Positions 7,644 through 19,141 of a DNA stretch of 21,517 nt are shown here, in pieces; position 1 is the stretch's first letter, and each line of letters begins with the position of its first letter. Below the pieces are notes generated by a model, which worked only from the letters and a program-made list of their open reading frames with translations, did no database searches and was not told where the DNA came from. The position numbers were made by a program, and so were the translations under genes. The DNA comes from a virus. Where the stretch lies: the IMG/VR virus record IMGVR_UViG_3300046028_002315, positions 1 to 21,517 of that record; one strand, written 5' to 3'.

Positions 7644-10600
7644 CTATTCTCCTAACAATCGTGCGAAAAGCAAGTTATACGCACTCTGAGTATTCTCGTT
7701 GTATTCAGCCAATTTACGTATTTTTACCACTGCCTGTTCCTTTGCAGCATCCTGTAGGACTGAACCACCTGGGAAGTTTTGGAACAAATCTTTTTCACTC
7801 TTATAGTCTTTATAGGTCTGCAGCATCTCGCTTAACACAGAACGAAGCTGTGGCTTTACTCTGACAGATTTGTCGCCAAGCATTGCCTCTAGGTCATTAA
7901 GAGCATTGAGCCTGTCGATAGCCTTTTGGCTACCTTGTGCAAGTTCTTCTTGAACTAATGGTCGACCAGCAAAGAAGCCCGTCTTCCACTCATTGAAATC
8001 CTTACGAAGTAAAGAGCGTTCATAATCAGTACCAACATTCTCAAGATCTGCTTCATACTTATCACGACGGTCAAAGTATGTCTGTAAATCTGCTGCTGTT
8101 TGCACCTCACGTAGGTGGTCATCAACACGCTTGTTCTGACGTAGACCCATATCGGTCATAGTCTTGTAGGCATCCCAAGAGAAACCAGACTTATGTGGAA
8201 TCAGGAATGCCGCGCCTTGTGGATATGCCTTAAATAGCGATTGGTTCTGGTCTACAAAGTCACCAGACTCTTCGGCATAACGGAAGTAAGCAACAGTCTT
8301 ACGCTCAGATTCAGAGATAGTAAACGGCATCTGGTCTGGGAAGAGTTCTACCCATTTAGTCATAGCAGCGTCGTAGTCGCCTTCATATTGGTCTAATAAG
8401 CCATACCAAACTTGCTTGAAGTTAGCCTCACCACTCTGACGAACCCATTGGTTGATATCACTCTTAAGTTGAGTTTGTGGTGCTGCTGGTGCAAAGAAGC
8501 CTAGAACTGCACGCAGTCCAAGAATGCTGATTGTTGTATTCTTGACACGGACTCTGTAGGCTTCAAGTTCTGCAGCAGTTGGTGGAATAAGGTTGTTGTC
8601 TTCATCATAACGCTTAGGAATACCGTGACCGCCAGCCTCAAGATAGGTGACAGCTTTGCGCCAAGCAGAGGCATACTGACCGTCACGCTCATCACGGTTC
8701 ATTGCACCGTAGATACGGTTGACGTGAGCTGGTAAGAATGCTGAAAGCATAGGTTGATCTACTGCGTACTTGCCGAGAGTTACACGCTCGATTGTATCGG
8801 CAGCGCCTGGCGACCAGATATTAACAACGTTCGCTAAGAACTTCATAGATACACCAGCAAGTGGACCTGCGAATGTAGGAATCAAAGATTCAGGGTTAGC
8901 AGATGGTGTAATCATACGCAAATCTGCACCGAACTGAACTGGAAGTGGAGTCTTAAACTCTGCTCCTACGCCCAATCCTTGCATTGCAAACTGCACTGCC
9001 TTATAGACAGGCTCTAAACCAGGATAGATGAAGTATGGTTCGCCTTGATCGTCTTTGACGACCCAACCAGAATGGGTAATGCCTTCATAGGTAAGTGCAA
9101 TCTTGCGGAAAGCCTCTGGGTTATATCGAGTAACGCGATACAAGCGTCGATAGAAGTCTTCAGTTGCACGATAGAAACGAGCAAAGTTGCGGATAGAGAA
9201 AGCAAACTGGCTCTGGACCATCGGATTATCTACATAAGCCAATGTCTGAAGTCTTGCCCTATCTTCTACAATCTCAGAAAGTTTACGCTGGGCAACATTA
9301 GTTGCCTTCTCTACCTTCTTTGCATCCGTTGGGTCTACCCCACGAAGGTGCGCTTTGATAAAGGCTTGCTCAAATCCACTCTTCTCAAACTGCTTGCGAA
9401 GTTTAATCATCTCAGCAAGCACCATAGGCTCACGTGATAGACGAGCATTGGCTTCGCCTAACCAGTCCCATCCCCATTCCATTAGGGATGCTGTGTAGTT
9501 ACCGCTATCAGATACAGCAACAAGTGCTGGACCAACGATAAGGCGTGGAGAATCAGCCTCAGTCATTGGAAGGTCATCAATAGTCATACGACCAGAGACC
9601 TTATATGCGCCATCGTCGCCAATGGTGCGAACTTTGTCAAGCAGTTCTAAGTTTAGATCGCCGTTCTTCTTTGAGAACAACTGACGGGCTGCATCATAGA
9701 CTTTGCCTGCGTGCTCCTCTACAGAAACATCTGCGTTCTTCCAGCGGAATTGCTTGTAAATTTCTGGATGCTCTTCAAACCATTTAGCAATAAGTGGTAC
9801 TGCCACTTCTTTTTTGTCAAGATTAGCAACCGCAATAGCACCTAGATTGTCATTGGCGTAGTAGTTAATACGCATCATCCACGATACACGGCTTGCTTCA
9901 TCAACCCAAGGAACCATTGGCCCAAAGCCCTTAGCGCCTTTGCCGCGACGGATTCCTGATGGATACTCCATCTTAAGTTCCATATTGCGAACGCGGTTCT
10001 TGCGAACCTTCGCTAAAGAACGGGTTGTGTAATCAAGCCCTGTAAAGGATTGCTTGCCGCCTTCAACAACATCCATAAGGGCATTGTCTAAATCACCGTG
10101 AATAATCTGTTTAGCAAGAGCAGCTTTATCTGCTTCCATCATCTTGCCTAGACCAACAGTCTTGTAGAAACGATTTATCTTTCCTTCGTTGACTGCTTGA
10201 GCCATAATGGTACGTACTTCTTTAATTCCGCCACCATCATCCATAGCCTTTTTGATGCGTGTTGCGTAAACTTCAGACTCATCCTTATTGACAAGACGCA
10301 TTACCAGACCGAGTGGATCATTGCCACGTGCTTCCCACTTGGTTAGACCATTCTCAACCTGACGCACTGTGCGTAGACGTGTTGATAGAAAACGAGACTT
10401 AGCAAGACCCCAAGGTGATTCGCCAATAGCAAGGTGGACCATTAAGTCCTCTGTTGCGTTACGAATAGCGTAACGTGGTCCAGCAAGGGTAAAGAATGAC
10501 CAGTATGAAGTCATCTTCTCAACCCAGTCCTTGTGAGCCAAGCCAGCAAATCTTTGTACCAAGCCAGTACGAGCAGCTGCTCTATCGATATCACGAATAG

Positions 10601-12344
10601 ACGGGGCCGACACAAATGGTGATAAATCTGATGGAATCAAGGCAATAGATTCCTCTTTGCCATTGATTAAAGCCTTAGATGGGTTGACACCATTGACATC
10701 GTCAGCAGCAAAAATTGGTGGTCTTAGGCCAAGCATCTGACGGTTAATAACTTGACCTTCAGCGGTAATAGTAATGCCGCGATAATCGCCAATAGTTCCT
10801 ATGATTCCGTAGTAAATGTCTTTACGACGACCTACATCATCAATGTTTTCAAATGCTTGTGCAAGTAACTTGGATTCGCGCTGTGGCATAACTAGACGCG
10901 AGAGTCTATAAATCTTATCTGAGGCATCTTTGGATGTAACATCAAATACATTATCTGCGAAGAATGGGATTGCCGTAAACTTGCCTTTGAATCTATCAAT
11001 GCGAGTCTTAATCATTGCCGATGACAGGCGACCTACACCCTTACTTTTGCTATCGCCTTTGAGAATAGTGACAATTTCTTTTTGATTATTGACAATTCTT
11101 TCAGCAATGCCATCATCTGTAGCTGCCACTCCAAAGAACATATCATCTACAAGATCTGGTCCAACTCGGTCCAAGTTGAGAAGTTTGTTTCCAGTGGTTA
11201 CTGCTCTGATGCGAGCACGTCGAGCAACATCCAGTCTTGGCATCAATGGTCTACGGCGACCAATCTGACCCTTAAGAACCTCATCTACCTGCTTGGCGTT
11301 TTGGAAGAAAGCCTTAGCAGTAGCAGCATTGGTTACTGGAATGTCAGCATCAAGGAAAGATTTGATAGTTGCTGGTCCAAACTCAGGTGCAATCGCTTTG
11401 AGTTCATTACGAGCAGCCATTGCTTCGGCTGTCTTGTTAGACTTAACAGCAGTGTCGTATTTATTGAGTACCGCACCGTAGCGATCCCAGAAGTTCACAA
11501 CTCCTTGACTCTGGAAAACTTCATCTACTTTATTTCCGCCGATGACTACATCAAGTGCATACTTCTTGACATCAATAAGACGCTTGGCTTTACCTACAAC
11601 AAGGGTTGGGTCTGTTCCAAGTCTCCACGCAGCATCAACAACGCCTGATGTAAGTCTATACGCAAAACCATTTTCAACTAACTTGCCTGGTGTAATGGCA
11701 TCAATAATGTTTGCAAACTGACGACCTGGTGAATACTTAGCAGAATCTACGAAAAGGATTGCATCTTTCATCACATCTTGCTCTTCGGGTGTGCCAGCCT
11801 TGTTAAAACCTAACTGGATATACTTGAGAGCTTCTGGATTATCTGCGTAATCTTTGATAAGTTGTGAATATGGAACTCTTTGTGAGACCTTCATTGCCAC
11901 TTCGGTCTGAACATTGCCAAATTTGCGACGAGCATCAGCCAAACGATTAGGATTGAATATCTTATCGCCCTTATCATTGGCTTCATCCCAAGCAAAACCT
12001 AAAGTTTTGCGCTCCATTATAGGAATTACCGCTGCACGATAAGTACGAGTGGTGAGATCTGATAGTTCTTGGGCTACGTTGAGTAGACCGCCAATAGAAT
12101 AATGCCACGCTGTACCCAACCAGCCACGCTTAGGTTGCTGTAATGGATCTGCTTCGCCAAAGTTCTGCTTAAGTGATTCTTTTTGGGTATCTGTAAGTTT
12201 GCCATACTGACGCTGTGCAACATTCTGTGGCAAATTAGACAATTCACGGTGTACGCCAAGGGCTTTATTAAGAGCTTCTACTTCTGCTCGTTCTTTGTCA
12301 GATAACCCCGCAGCAAATGCCGCTGCTTTTAGATTCTCTGACAT
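7644..12344 (-). CDS. Giant internal virion protein, 1566 aa
   Basis: The frame also has a TTG at 12347, but ATG 12344 follows GGTAGG at good spacing and overlaps the upstream stop as TGATG, so I use it. The protein is mostly helical, without signal peptide. Landmarks: GPRYAIRNATEDLMVHLAIGE at about 620-645 (split in two blocks), a basic patch YPSGIRRGKGAKGFGP near 790, RNFARFYRATEDFYRRLYR near 1050, and PSANPESLIPTFAGPLAGV near 1145. The latter two resemble, from memory, giant virion proteins of actinophages and marine podovirus-like phages. It is probably ejected into the host with DNA. I could not find RNA polymerase, protease or lysozyme catalytic motifs. Confidence 0.75.
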   Translation of the reverse strand: MSENLKAAAFAAGLSDKERAEVEALNKALGVHRELSNLPQNVAQRQYGKLTDTQKESLKQNFGEADPLQQPKRGWLGTAWHYSIGGLLNVAQELSDLTTRTYRAAVIPIMERKTLGFAWDEANDKGDKIFNPNRLADARRKFGNVQTEVAMKVSQRVPYSQLIKDYADNPEALKYIQLGFNKAGTPEEQDVMKDAILFVDSAKYSPGRQFANIIDAITPGKLVENGFAYRLTSGVVDAAWRLGTDPTLVVGKAKRLIDVKKYALDVVIGGNKVDEVFQSQGVVNFWDRYGAVLNKYDTAVKSNKTAEAMAARNELKAIAPEFGPATIKSFLDADIPVTNAATAKAFFQNAKQVDEVLKGQIGRRRPLMPRLDVARRARIRAVTTGNKLLNLDRVGPDLVDDMFFGVAATDDGIAERIVNNQKEIVTILKGDSKSKGVGRLSSAMIKTRIDRFKGKFTAIPFFADNVFDVTSKDASDKIYRLSRLVMPQRESKLLAQAFENIDDVGRRKDIYYGIIGTIGDYRGITITAEGQVINRQMLGLRPPIFAADDVNGVNPSKALINGKEESIALIPSDLSPFVSAPSIRDIDRAAARTGLVQRFAGLAHKDWVEKMTSYWSFFTLAGPRYAIRNATEDLMVHLAIGESPWGLAKSRFLSTRLRTVRQVENGLTKWEARGNDPLGLVMRLVNKDESEVYATRIKKAMDDGGGIKEVRTIMAQAVNEGKINRFYKTVGLGKMMEADKAALAKQIIHGDLDNALMDVVEGGKQSFTGLDYTTRSLAKVRKNRVRNMELKMEYPSGIRRGKGAKGFGPMVPWVDEASRVSWMMRINYYANDNLGAIAVANLDKKEVAVPLIAKWFEEHPEIYKQFRWKNADVSVEEHAGKVYDAARQLFSKKNGDLNLELLDKVRTIGDDGAYKVSGRMTIDDLPMTEADSPRLIVGPALVAVSDSGNYTASLMEWGWDWLGEANARLSREPMVLAEMIKLRKQFEKSGFEQAFIKAHLRGVDPTDAKKVEKATNVAQRKLSEIVEDRARLQTLAYVDNPMVQSQFAFSIRNFARFYRATEDFYRRLYRVTRYNPEAFRKIALTYEGITHSGWVVKDDQGEPYFIYPGLEPVYKAVQFAMQGLGVGAEFKTPLPVQFGADLRMITPSANPESLIPTFAGPLAGVSMKFLANVVNIWSPGAADTIERVTLGKYAVDQPMLSAFLPAHVNRIYGAMNRDERDGQYASAWRKAVTYLEAGGHGIPKRYDEDNNLIPPTAAELEAYRVRVKNTTISILGLRAVLGFFAPAAPQTQLKSDINQWVRQSGEANFKQVWYGLLDQYEGDYDAAMTKWVELFPDQMPFTISESERKTVAYFRYAEESGDFVDQNQSLFKAYPQGAAFLIPHKSGFSWDAYKTMTDMGLRQNKRVDDHLREVQTAADLQTYFDRRDKYEADLENVGTDYERSLLRKDFNEWKTGFFAGRPLVQEELAQGSQKAIDRLNALNDLEAMLGDKSVRVKPQLRSVLSEMLQTYKDYKSEKDLFQNFPGGSVLQDAAKEQAVVKIRKLAEYNENTQSAYNLLFARLLGE

Positions 12345-17285: not shown

Positions 17286-17346
17286 GTAGGTCTGCTTCCC
17301 CCTACACCCTAAAGGGCGTAGCGTGAGCGCAGCCCACTGAACGGTC

Positions 17347-17375
17347 GCAAATGCTGGACTGGTGGTCGCATTTGC
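17347..17375. repeat. Inverted repeat GCAAATGC / GCATTTGC
   Basis: Arms at 17347-17354 and 17368-17375, 13-base loop. It lies at the predicted start of the leftward late transcript (about 17376), so it could be an operator or a 5' end stem-loop protecting the mRNA. Confidence 0.55.
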
Positions 17376-17382
17376 TCCCTAC

Positions 17383-17410
17383 TGTATATTAGGCGGGAAA
17401 AAAAAGTCAT
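17383..17410 (-). promoter_or_regulatory. Candidate leftward (late) promoter
   Basis: On the minus strand, ATGACT (17410-17405), a 16-base spacer, then TATACA (17388-17383); each box matches 4 of 6 consensus bases. A perfect inverted repeat GCGGGAAA/TTTCCCGC (17393-17400 with 17410-17417) covers the spacer and -35 box, as an operator might. It would give a leader of about 160-200 bases before terminase. Confidence 0.4.
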
Positions 17411-17441
17411 TTCCCGCATAATGGCAAAAAATCTTTATAGA

Positions 17442-17457
17442 TGTGACTAACGTCACA
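17442..17457. promoter_or_regulatory. Perfect CRP/GlxR-type palindrome
   Basis: TGTGAC-TAAC-GTCACA fits TGTGA-N6-TCACA exactly, the consensus of CRP-family regulators, including actinobacterial GlxR/Crp. It lies 10 bases upstream of a TATAAT box, centred near -30 from the expected start. That position overlaps the -35 region and would favour repression of the rightward promoter or a role in the leftward direction. Confidence 0.55.
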
Positions 17458-17473
17458 GATATAGCGGTATAAT
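17443..17473 (+). promoter_or_regulatory. Candidate rightward promoter with TATAAT box
   Basis: TATAAT at 17468-17473 is a perfect -10 box. The best -35 is GTGACT (17443-17448, 4 of 6) with a long 19-base spacer, inside the CRP-type palindrome. Two copies of AATACGGAC (17471-17479 and 17480-17488) follow and overlap the likely start point near 17480. Confidence 0.45.
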
Positions 17474-17595: not shown

Positions 17596-17651
17596 GTCTC
17601 ACATAGTGAGACTGTGGATAAAGATGTGGATAACTTTCATAATAAAGTTAT
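17596..17651. other. Candidate replication origin: two DnaA boxes and AT-rich inverted repeats
   Basis: Two perfect DnaA boxes in the same orientation, TGTGGATAA at 17613-17621 and 17625-17633 (reverse of TTATCCACA), 12 bp apart. To the left lies a perfect hairpin GTCTCAC-ATA-GTGAGAC (17596-17612). To the right lies ATAACTTT/AAAGTTAT (17630-17637 with 17644-17651) in an AT-rich stretch, a likely unwinding site. A near-match TTATCCCCA is at 17204-17212. Use as an origin, through host DnaA, is inference. Confidence 0.55.
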
Positions 17652-17884: not shown

Positions 17885-17912
17885 TTGACACTTACCCTAA
17901 CTATGGTAATCT
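17885..17912 (+). promoter_or_regulatory. Rightward promoter P1
   Basis: Perfect TTGACA (17885-17890), 16-base spacer, TAATCT (17907-17912, of the TAnnnT type used by actinobacteria). The spacer holds TTACCCTAA and, with GGTAA at 17905-17909, an imperfect dyad. The same spacer motif recurs in P2. The predicted start near 17919 gives a 45-base leader to the first gene. Confidence 0.65.
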
Positions 17913-17920
17913 TCTCTTAC

Positions 17921-17938
17921 TAGCTAGATTAGCTAGAT
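17921..17938 (+). repeat. Tandem TAGCTAGAT repeat in the P1 leader
   Basis: Two exact 9-base copies side by side, starting at about +1 of P1. GCTAGATT also occurs downstream of P2 at 18382-18389. It may be a binding site for a regulator of initial transcription. Confidence 0.5.
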
Positions 17939-17963
17939 GAACTTACTAGAAGGGTAAACTAGA

Positions 17964-18152
17964 ATGAAGCAAGTAACCAAGTCAGAGCTCAATCAGCTCG
18001 CAGTCGGTGGTAAGTCAGCTCTCGCAATTATCCAGCGAGCTATCAAAGAGGATAATTACGCTGAAGCTCTGGAGTATTGGGCCTATCTGAACCATATGGT
18101 AACGGGCCTAAAGCTCGGAATCGATGCCCGTCGAGTCCAGAAGGGAGCATAG
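17964..18152 (+). CDS. Small helical protein, 62 aa (first gene of the rightward operon)
   Basis: ATG at 17964 with AGAAGGG upstream at about 9 bases; stop TAG. Begins MKQVTKSELNQLAVGGKSAL, with a two-helix pattern (AIIQRAIKEDNYAEALEYWA, then LNHMVTGLKLGID). Resembles a small helical-hairpin protein; no known family recognised. As the first gene behind promoter P1 it is probably expressed early. A regulatory or host-interaction role is possible but unproven. Confidence 0.72.
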   Translation: MKQVTKSELNQLAVGGKSALAIIQRAIKEDNYAEALEYWAYLNHMVTGLKLGIDARRVQKGA

Positions 18153-18154
18153 TC

Positions 18155-18331
18155 GTGACACGTAAAGATTATGAGTTGATATCCAGAGTGTTTGCTCACT
18201 TCTCCACAATATGCGAGCTGAATGAGACTATCGGCGGCCGCATCGCTGAACGCCTAGCTGAAGATTTAGCTGAAGATAACCCTCGGTTTGATTCCGCTAG
18301 ATTCCTTAGAGCTTGCGGCCTAGATTCCTAG
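18155..18331 (+). CDS. MTRKDYELI-type actinophage protein, 58 aa
   Basis: A longer frame starts at 18077 inside the previous gene, but GTG at 18155, two bases after that gene's stop and with AAGGGAG upstream, gives the family start MTRKDYELISRVFAHFS. The C-terminal NPRFDSARFLRACGLD matches the ending FDxxRFLxACG that I recall from many mycobacteriophage and other actinophage proteins of this size. Function unknown. It is a good marker for an actinobacterial host. Confidence 0.82.
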   Translation: MTRKDYELISRVFAHFSTICELNETIGGRIAERLAEDLAEDNPRFDSARFLRACGLDS

Positions 18332-18335
18332 TTGC

Positions 18336-18372
18336 TGGACTATTACCCTAAGAATGGTAGACTTAGGGTAAT
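18336..18372 (+). promoter_or_regulatory. Rightward promoter P2 with 10-bp operator-like palindrome
   Basis: TGGACT (18336-18341), 16-base spacer, TAGACT (18358-18363). The spacer matches that of P1 at 13 of 16 positions, including TTACCCTAA and ATGG. In addition ATTACCCTAA (18342-18351) and TTAGGGTAAT (18363-18372) form a perfect inverted repeat across the -10 box, a typical repressor position. Confidence 0.6.
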
Positions 18373-18421
18373 GGCCTAGTCGCTAGATTGGCGGCAGGAT
18401 AGCTTGAAGGGAGCTAGTTAG

Positions 18422-19141
18422 ATGGACACTATGAACGCAACGCGGACCGAGCAAGTAATCTATGAGATGCTGACTGAGAATACGGGCCGCCACTTACTCG
18501 ACTCTGGCGGCGATAGCGGGAGAGCGTGGCAGCGTAACCAAGTGAAGACACTGGAAGACTTCCGCGATGAAGCTCGCGTTCACTTTGACGCTCGATACTA
18601 TGACGCGACCCTCTCGACTTTCCATCACCTAACCGAGAAGTTGACCTACTCGGAGGAGTGGACGGAAGAGCTCAACGATTACGCCGCTAAGCGTGACGAT
18701 TATTGGCTTGAGATAATGGAGAGCTTCCCGCAGTCTATGGGATGGAAGCTAGTGTTTACTGATAACAGCTATAACCACGAGTCAATTCTCTCTCAAGTGA
18801 TTCAGTACTGCGTCTATTACACTGGAGAAGAGTACCTAGTAGCGCTTCAGATTCACGGGGGAGCTGACGTACGCGGCGGCTATACCCGTCCACGCATCTT
18901 CTCGATGGATGAGGAGTATGCGCTAGTGATGGAGGATGCGTCCATCTATTGCACTGGAGACGCAGTAGATAGCGACGGGCCGCACCGATTCGATTACAGC
19001 GGCAGCGAGTGGACCTATGAGGGAAGCTACTCCCGCGAGTATGACCCTTATGCGATGAGTCAGAGAGCTGACCTACTCAAGCTCGACTATCTCCCTTGCG
19101 CTATCTGCGGCGCACCTATGAAGAATGGAGCGCAAGTATGA
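18422..19141 (+). CDS. Conserved phage protein with TGRxxxDSGGxxGRxWQRN motif, 239 aa
   Basis: ATG at 18422 follows GAAGGGAG at 8 bases. The motif TGRHLLDSGGDSGRAWQRN (residues 21-39) and ALQIHGGADVRGGYTRPRIF (141-160) are features of a widespread family of phage proteins of unknown function, recognised from memory. Also present: a central helical part, and a C-terminal CAIC (Cys226, Cys229) that looks like half of a zinc knuckle. The gene follows promoter P2. Conservation of the Gly-rich motifs suggests an enzyme or substrate-binding fold, but no reaction is known. Confidence 0.78.
   Translation: MDTMNATRTEQVIYEMLTENTGRHLLDSGGDSGRAWQRNQVKTLEDFRDEARVHFDARYYDATLSTFHHLTEKLTYSEEWTEELNDYAAKRDDYWLEIMESFPQSMGWKLVFTDNSYNHESILSQVIQYCVYYTGEEYLVALQIHGGADVRGGYTRPRIFSMDEEYALVMEDASIYCTGDAVDSDGPHRFDYSGSEWTYEGSYSREYDPYAMSQRADLLKLDYLPCAICGAPMKNGAQV

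Follow-up and report, generated by a model that had tools for sequence, protein, structure and literature searches.

An apparently uncatalogued family of two-state RNA hairpins, some of them promoter-like, at stop codons between early genes of environmental phages

The stretch of DNA analysed here, called the window throughout, is a virus contig of 21.5 kb (21,517 nucleotides; IMG/VR record IMGVR_UViG_3300046028_002315) in which the late genes (terminase, portal and others) lie on the minus strand and the early genes on the plus strand from about position 17960 onward (Table 1). Among sequenced phages the terminase of the window is nearest to those of OX376640/OX376641 (45%), which are recorded as 'LanE43-Apr' and are of the E7/F5 type, followed by those of Streptomyces phages; T4-like phages are not among its best matches. 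Since phages E7 and F5 were isolated on the actinobacterium 'Ca. Planktophila' LanE-43 (PMC10202952), the terminase makes an actinobacterial host likely. Scanning of genome contigs in search of the host returned neither terminase relatives nor copies of the hairpin H1 described below. The product of the downstream early gene shows 36-38% identity to proteins of mycobacteriophages, e.g. Fredward (gp94), of Gordonia phages and of an Erythrobacter phage. Between the terminase and the early genes, positions 17370-17470 hold CTACTGTATATTAGGCGGGAAAAAAAAGTCATTTCCCGC, with the inverted repeat GCGGGAAA/TTTCCCGC, and GTGACTAACGTCAC; these sequences are alike in the compared relatives and possibly serve the control of the leftward late promoter. 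At 17611-17640, TGTGGATAAAGATGTGGATAAC comprises two DnaA-box-like sites, resembling the pairs of TGTGGATAA at the same place in some relatives (e.g. L021 and L024), and marks a possible replication origin.

Table 1. Early-region features of the window, in order of position
Feature	Positions	Strand	Remarks
P1, probable early promoter TTGACA-16-TAATCT	17885..17912	+	TTGACA 17885-17890, spacer CTTACCCTAACTATGG 17891-17906, TAATCT 17907-17912; TTACC-N8-GGTAA inverted repeat across spacer and -10 box; matching promoter in L007, L010, L011 and L006
Predicted 5'-terminal hairpin of the P1 transcript, CTAGCTA-gat-TAGCTAG	17920..17936	+	from leader folding
First early gene	17964..18152	+	62 aa; no family; AGAAGGG upstream as ribosome binding site
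Second early gene	18155..18331	+	58 aa; putative GTG start; TAG stop at 18329-18331, in the 5' arm of H1
H1, intercistronic RNA hairpin, CUAGU-U-GCUGG-A-CUAUUACCCUAAG...CUUAGGGUAAUGG-C-CUAGU-C-GCUAG	18328..18386	+	covariance model 69.8 bits, E 4e-17 (the copy is itself in the model)
P2, promoter-like TGGACT-16-TAGACT	18336..18363	+	TGGACT 18336-18341, spacer ATTACCCTAAGAATGG 18342-18357, TAGACT 18358-18363; inside H1; repeats the P1 spacer motif; geometry over-represented among hairpin families
H2, alternative hairpin on the 3' arm of H1, CCUAGUCGCUA/UGGCGGCAGG	18375..18398	+	excludes the base of H1
Ribosome binding site GAAGGGAG	18406..18413	+	within small stem TAGCT...AGCTA in the window copy (fold)
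Downstream early gene	18422..19141	+	239 aa; phrog_11344; homologues in mycobacterium and gordonia phages

P1 is probably a real and conserved early promoter. A TTGAC-type promoter occupies the same place in relatives, some 550-850 nt away from where the divergent terminase gene starts, P1 assignments having been made partly by eye, and the inverted repeat over spacer and -10 box is kept within the lineage of the window. Other lineages have P1 spacer motifs of their own (TACGGTAGAC..CCGTA; CGCT..ACGGTAGCG; GG[AT]TAGA[CT]TAGCC; GGGGATCACCCC), and in several lineages the spacer is moderately more symmetric within itself than chance would give (combined p 2e-4, after some selection). The predicted P1 transcript carries a 5'-terminal hairpin in nearly every lineage, followed by the ribosome binding site; across 39 P1 sequences the hairpins of the leaders had a mean z of -2.8, compared with -0.76 for control windows. 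A sigma-70 consensus scan called neither P1 nor P2, since the -10 box of each conforms mostly to the looser pattern TAnnnT and the -35 box of P2 agrees with the consensus at four of six positions.

The preliminary description of this DNA had set P2 beside P1 on account of nearly identical spacers with a common motif in one register, and the letters are as it reported. P1 and P2 have the same letter at 21 of their 28 positions and share TTACCCTAA-N2-ATGGTA-N2-CT, placed identically relative to the promoter boxes. Their resemblance has a score of 13; shuffles of P1 averaged 5.6 and none of 500 came up to 13, and the best match to the apex of P2 across the whole upstream region is P1 itself. Judged by consensus P2 is weak, with four of six matches also in the -10 box. 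TTACCCTAANNATGG was found exactly twice in the window, and the motif varies between lineages. The ACCCTAA pointed out at 17306-17312 does occur, but chance alone should produce a few copies of any 7-mer, and this one is tied to the rest in no relative. As to the perfect 10-bp palindrome said to cover the -10 box of P2, an inverted repeat does lie there; its arms are in fact 11 bp, ATTACCCTAAG (18342-18352) and CTTAGGGTAAT (18362-18372), with a 9-nt loop, and it is the apex of a longer structure spanning 18328-18386. Neither the region nor the element had a meaningful BLAST match among sequenced phages. An exact 21-mer had four matches in the whole viral collection; L004 and L006 hold the same element, and L003 and L005 match in sequence without it, for which reason the 21-mer alone was rejected as a marker.

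The longer structure, H1, is a hairpin of 59 nt with about 23 pairs and two 1x1 mismatches. Relatives have constant ends of the P2 region, TAGTTGCTGGACT and GGCCTAGTCGCTA, around a middle of unrelated yet self-complementary sequence. Over 16 distinct copies, 97.5% of the cells of the 23 pairs are paired and 11 of the 23 show compensatory change, giving a covariation score of 0.455; shuffles gave 0.177 and slid versions no more than 0.134. Conserved G-U pairs (e.g. columns 7-54 and 14-47) are possible only on the sense strand, and each copy in the early region scores best on the strand that is sense for the early genes. By these comparisons H1 is a conserved RNA element that is kept via compensatory change.

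The covariance model identified 46 sense copies of H1 in the first contig set and further copies in other contigs, with 0-3 copies per large contig. In nearly all copies the first TAG of H1 is the stop codon of the upstream gene, and the next start codon lies mostly 24-55 nt past the end of the hairpin. Fold energies range from about -27 to -39 kcal/mol, and many copies have GC-rich apices without promoter or motif. The phages that bear H1 form a large group with hardly any cultured members, known from samples of the environment, mostly aquatic, and probably infecting actinobacteria; the terminase group numbers more than 600 contigs. H1 is absent from the whole record of the cultured relative E7 and from the searched stretches of Streptomyces phage Immanuel3 and Mycobacterium phage Fredward, and Rfam gave no match up to E 5 within the window. 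Lone weaker matches to the model occur on the minus strand far from the early region in the records of L011 (G003, 10818-10875), L010 (G002, 8810-8867) and L025 (G006, 2208-2265).

The 3' arm of H1 can also pair with the sequence downstream of it. The resulting hairpin H2, across the end of H1, is possible in 44 of 45 copies with sequences that are quite different between lineages, and the complementarity exceeds that of shuffles (p about 2e-14) and of swapped partners (5e-7). Compensatory changes are seen within the lineage of the window, where L007 has GUCAUU/GAUGAC and the others have GUCGCU/GGCGGC. P2 belongs to a family of two-state intercistronic RNA hairpins, apparently uncatalogued, that are anchored at stop codons and of which some are promoter-like as well; this, the chief feature of P2, had escaped the preliminary description. 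Beyond H2, the window copy has a third small stem (18400-18416) that holds the ribosome binding site in its loop; the same stem is found in L010, L011 and L021, its position is taken by GGCTC...GAGCC in L007, and L008 and L009 have none.

The promoter-like subset stands out by its geometry. A TAnnnT box 16-18 bp from the -35-like box is present in 10 of the 27 apex families in which a -35-like box is recognisable, as against 0.69 expected from apices shuffled with their pairing kept. Likeness to the own P1, expressed as lineage mean z, is 2.6-7.0 for hairpins with promoter geometry and -0.7 to 1.1 for plain ones, and wherever a contig has both kinds the promoter-bearing hairpin is the nearer to P1 (6/6). 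Matches to the own-lineage P1, with one representative for each of nine lineages, sum to 84 compared with 59 by permutation (p about 5e-5), related copies having been counted as independent in places for the P values. An earlier lineage test gave p 0.001, and below 0.01 with any one lineage left out; against other windows of the same upstream regions the P1 match reaches a z of about 7. A first permutation over single contigs gave p 0.047 only, and grouping by lineage is needed because relatives share apices. Motifs common to P1 and hairpin are exemplified by TTACCCTAA-N2-ATGGTA in the window, GCTATACCGTAG in L008/L009, TTACGGTAGC in L069, TAGATTA[GA]CCT in L032 and CTAGGGG in L025. In an unbiased location test P1 ranked alone at the top only for the window, L008/L009 and L032, while it tied or came second for several others, and three lineages added later had weak matches to their own P1 (p 0.015-0.12). 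An unbiased search with apices of distant contigs fetched later showed no preference for P1; most of those hairpins are without promoter geometry.

The preliminary description took the matching spacers as a sign of a shared regulator or of a phage-specific promoter class. The idea of a shared regulator, in a lineage-specific form, is partly supported in that the P1 motif recurs in promoter-like hairpins of the same lineage, across nine lineages, and is absent from hairpins without promoter geometry, and the pattern suggests one lineage-specific regulator for P1 and P2. The pairing of P1 with P2 is nevertheless not strict. For the lineage of the window, a strict coevolution of the P1 spacer with the apex of P2 was considered and rejected, as the sequences do not change in step: L010 combines the P1 core of the window with an altered apex, L006 combines the apex of the window with an altered P1, and in L011 the two are not alike. 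The motif stands in the same register to the boxes in the window, within one base in the CGCT lineage and different in others, which favours a blocking protein over a sigma-like specificity. The search for a candidate regulator found none: no early gene had a Pfam match at the curated cut-off, and in 13 large contigs neither HTH_3, sought as a lysogeny regulator, nor a Pfam tyrosine integrase was found.

The reading we favour, in which our confidence is evenly balanced, is that of a composite regulatory element of the early operon in which H1 makes new mRNA 5' ends by cleavage or by a start at P2. P1 would start the early operon, and where the second gene ends in its stop codon the RNA would fold as H1, at which the downstream gene would gain a new mRNA 5' end. 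An enzyme of the RNase III type would cut H1 in every copy; in a subset including the window, transcription would also start at P2, with the -35 box in the 5' arm of H1 and the start point in the 3' arm. By either route the new RNA would begin in the 3' arm, H1 would be unable to re-form, and H2 would fold. H2 may then act as a protective 5'-terminal hairpin like that of P1 transcripts, followed by the ribosome binding site. The presence of the P1 spacer motif in P2 would allow one phage regulator to act on both early promoters, most likely in a joint shut-off. We prefer a 5'-end-making role because an RNA starting in the 3' arm of H1 would form only H2, which is then 5'-terminal like the leader hairpin of P1. 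Comparison establishes H1, H2, their place at the stop codon, the promoter geometry and the likeness to P1, from which cleavage, initiation at P2, protection by H2 and the regulator are inferred.

It is rather unlikely that H1 and H2 are an RNA processing or stability element only, P2 being no promoter and its likeness to P1 an accident or a relic of past copying. Hairpins without promoter geometry are indeed common and equally well conserved in structure, the boxes of P2 are weak, and P1 and apex are out of step in the lineage of the window. Against this, promoter geometry is seen in 10 of 27 apex families where 0.69 are expected, and the likeness to P1 is limited to the hairpins having that geometry and recurs with different sequences in nine lineages.

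A translation-sensed RNA switch with a hidden promoter seems quite unlikely. A ribosome at the UAG would cover the 5' arm of H1 and so give H2, and without translation H1 would close and be cleaved or end transcription; the early genes would be coupled in series by stop-codon-anchored two-state hairpins, with a lineage-specific regulator setting P1 and P2 together. Very doubtful is a role of H1 as terminator or attenuator between early genes, behind which P2 restarts transcription, as proposed for the promoter early stem-loops (PeSLs) of T4-type phages. A hairpin of such strength directly at a stop codon and an antiterminator-like alternative pairing as H2 would suit it, and actinobacterial terminators may do without a U-tract. 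Yet H1 does not have the make-up of an intrinsic terminator, a GC-rich stem with a U-tract: no U-tract follows H1 or H2, the sequence after H1 being ATTGGCGGCAGG, and a terminator scan did not call H1. Promoter-free hairpins, too, have genes behind them, and a strong terminator would silence these.

The preliminary description in its plain version, with P2 a second copy of P1 carrying a palindromic operator, amounts to two ordinary promoters that bind one protein at a hairpin serving as DNA operator only. The identical motif and register in the window and the inverted repeat in the P1 spacer of several lineages agree with this, but it is decidedly improbable and is not supported as given: most of the palindrome belongs to the 59-nt RNA hairpin, which also exists without the promoter. 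Pairs kept by compensatory change with sense-strand G-U pairs among them, the many GC-rich apices free of promoter and motif, and an element that begins at the stop codon are not expected of a DNA operator. Highly improbable is a recombination module, a repeated intergenic palindrome for the swapping of early gene cassettes, for although different genes lie downstream of the copies and in L007, L009 and L010 extra genes are enclosed by two copies, the unconserved apex offers poor homology, the G-U pairs are strand-specific and accompanied by the H2 alternative, the copies are few, and the 13 large contigs gave no match to the integrase named above.

The composite element has its closest counterparts among phage systems of several kinds. 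Phage T7 has RNase III processing sites between its early genes, irregular hairpins just upstream of the next ribosome binding site that yield separate stable mRNAs. H1, a conserved hairpin, likewise lies between early genes and ahead of the ribosome binding site that comes next, and the likeness is one of layout; here we infer the cleavage, the stop codon lies in the 5' arm and some copies embed a promoter-like sequence. In the stoperators of cluster A mycobacteriophages (L5 type) the repressor site of the early promoter is repeated elsewhere in the genome. Stoperators are short, asymmetric and fixed, in contrast to a motif that varies between lineages within an RNA hairpin and has two exact copies in the window. 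The PeSLs of T4-type phages (Arbiol et al. 2010, Comeau et al. 2014, as cited in PMC4503421) are, in that account, small intergenic cassettes of a stem-loop and an early promoter whose flanking genes vary among relatives, and early promoter and stem-loop are joined here as well, as judged by geometry (10 of 27 families; P2 inside H1). Compared with that account, the predicted promoter here lies inside the stem-loop, the hairpin starts from a stop codon, H2 is an alternative, many copies are promoter-free, and the phages are not T4-like myoviruses. Actinobacteriophages such as CaiB have repeated intergenic regions upstream of several genes, proposed to be regulatory (PMC9302106); they resemble the present element as short repeats ahead of several phage genes, and those of CaiB differ from it in being described as fixed sequence blocks at fixed distances, with no reported hairpin.

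The element gives a large and almost uncultured group of environmental phages a concrete and testable candidate for the control of early genes, and it adds an RNA family that is missing from Rfam. A promoter-like sequence, a putative regulator motif, a stop codon and a two-state hairpin are brought together within about 70 nt. If the link between P1 and P2 is true, the motif could be used as bait for the early regulator of each lineage.
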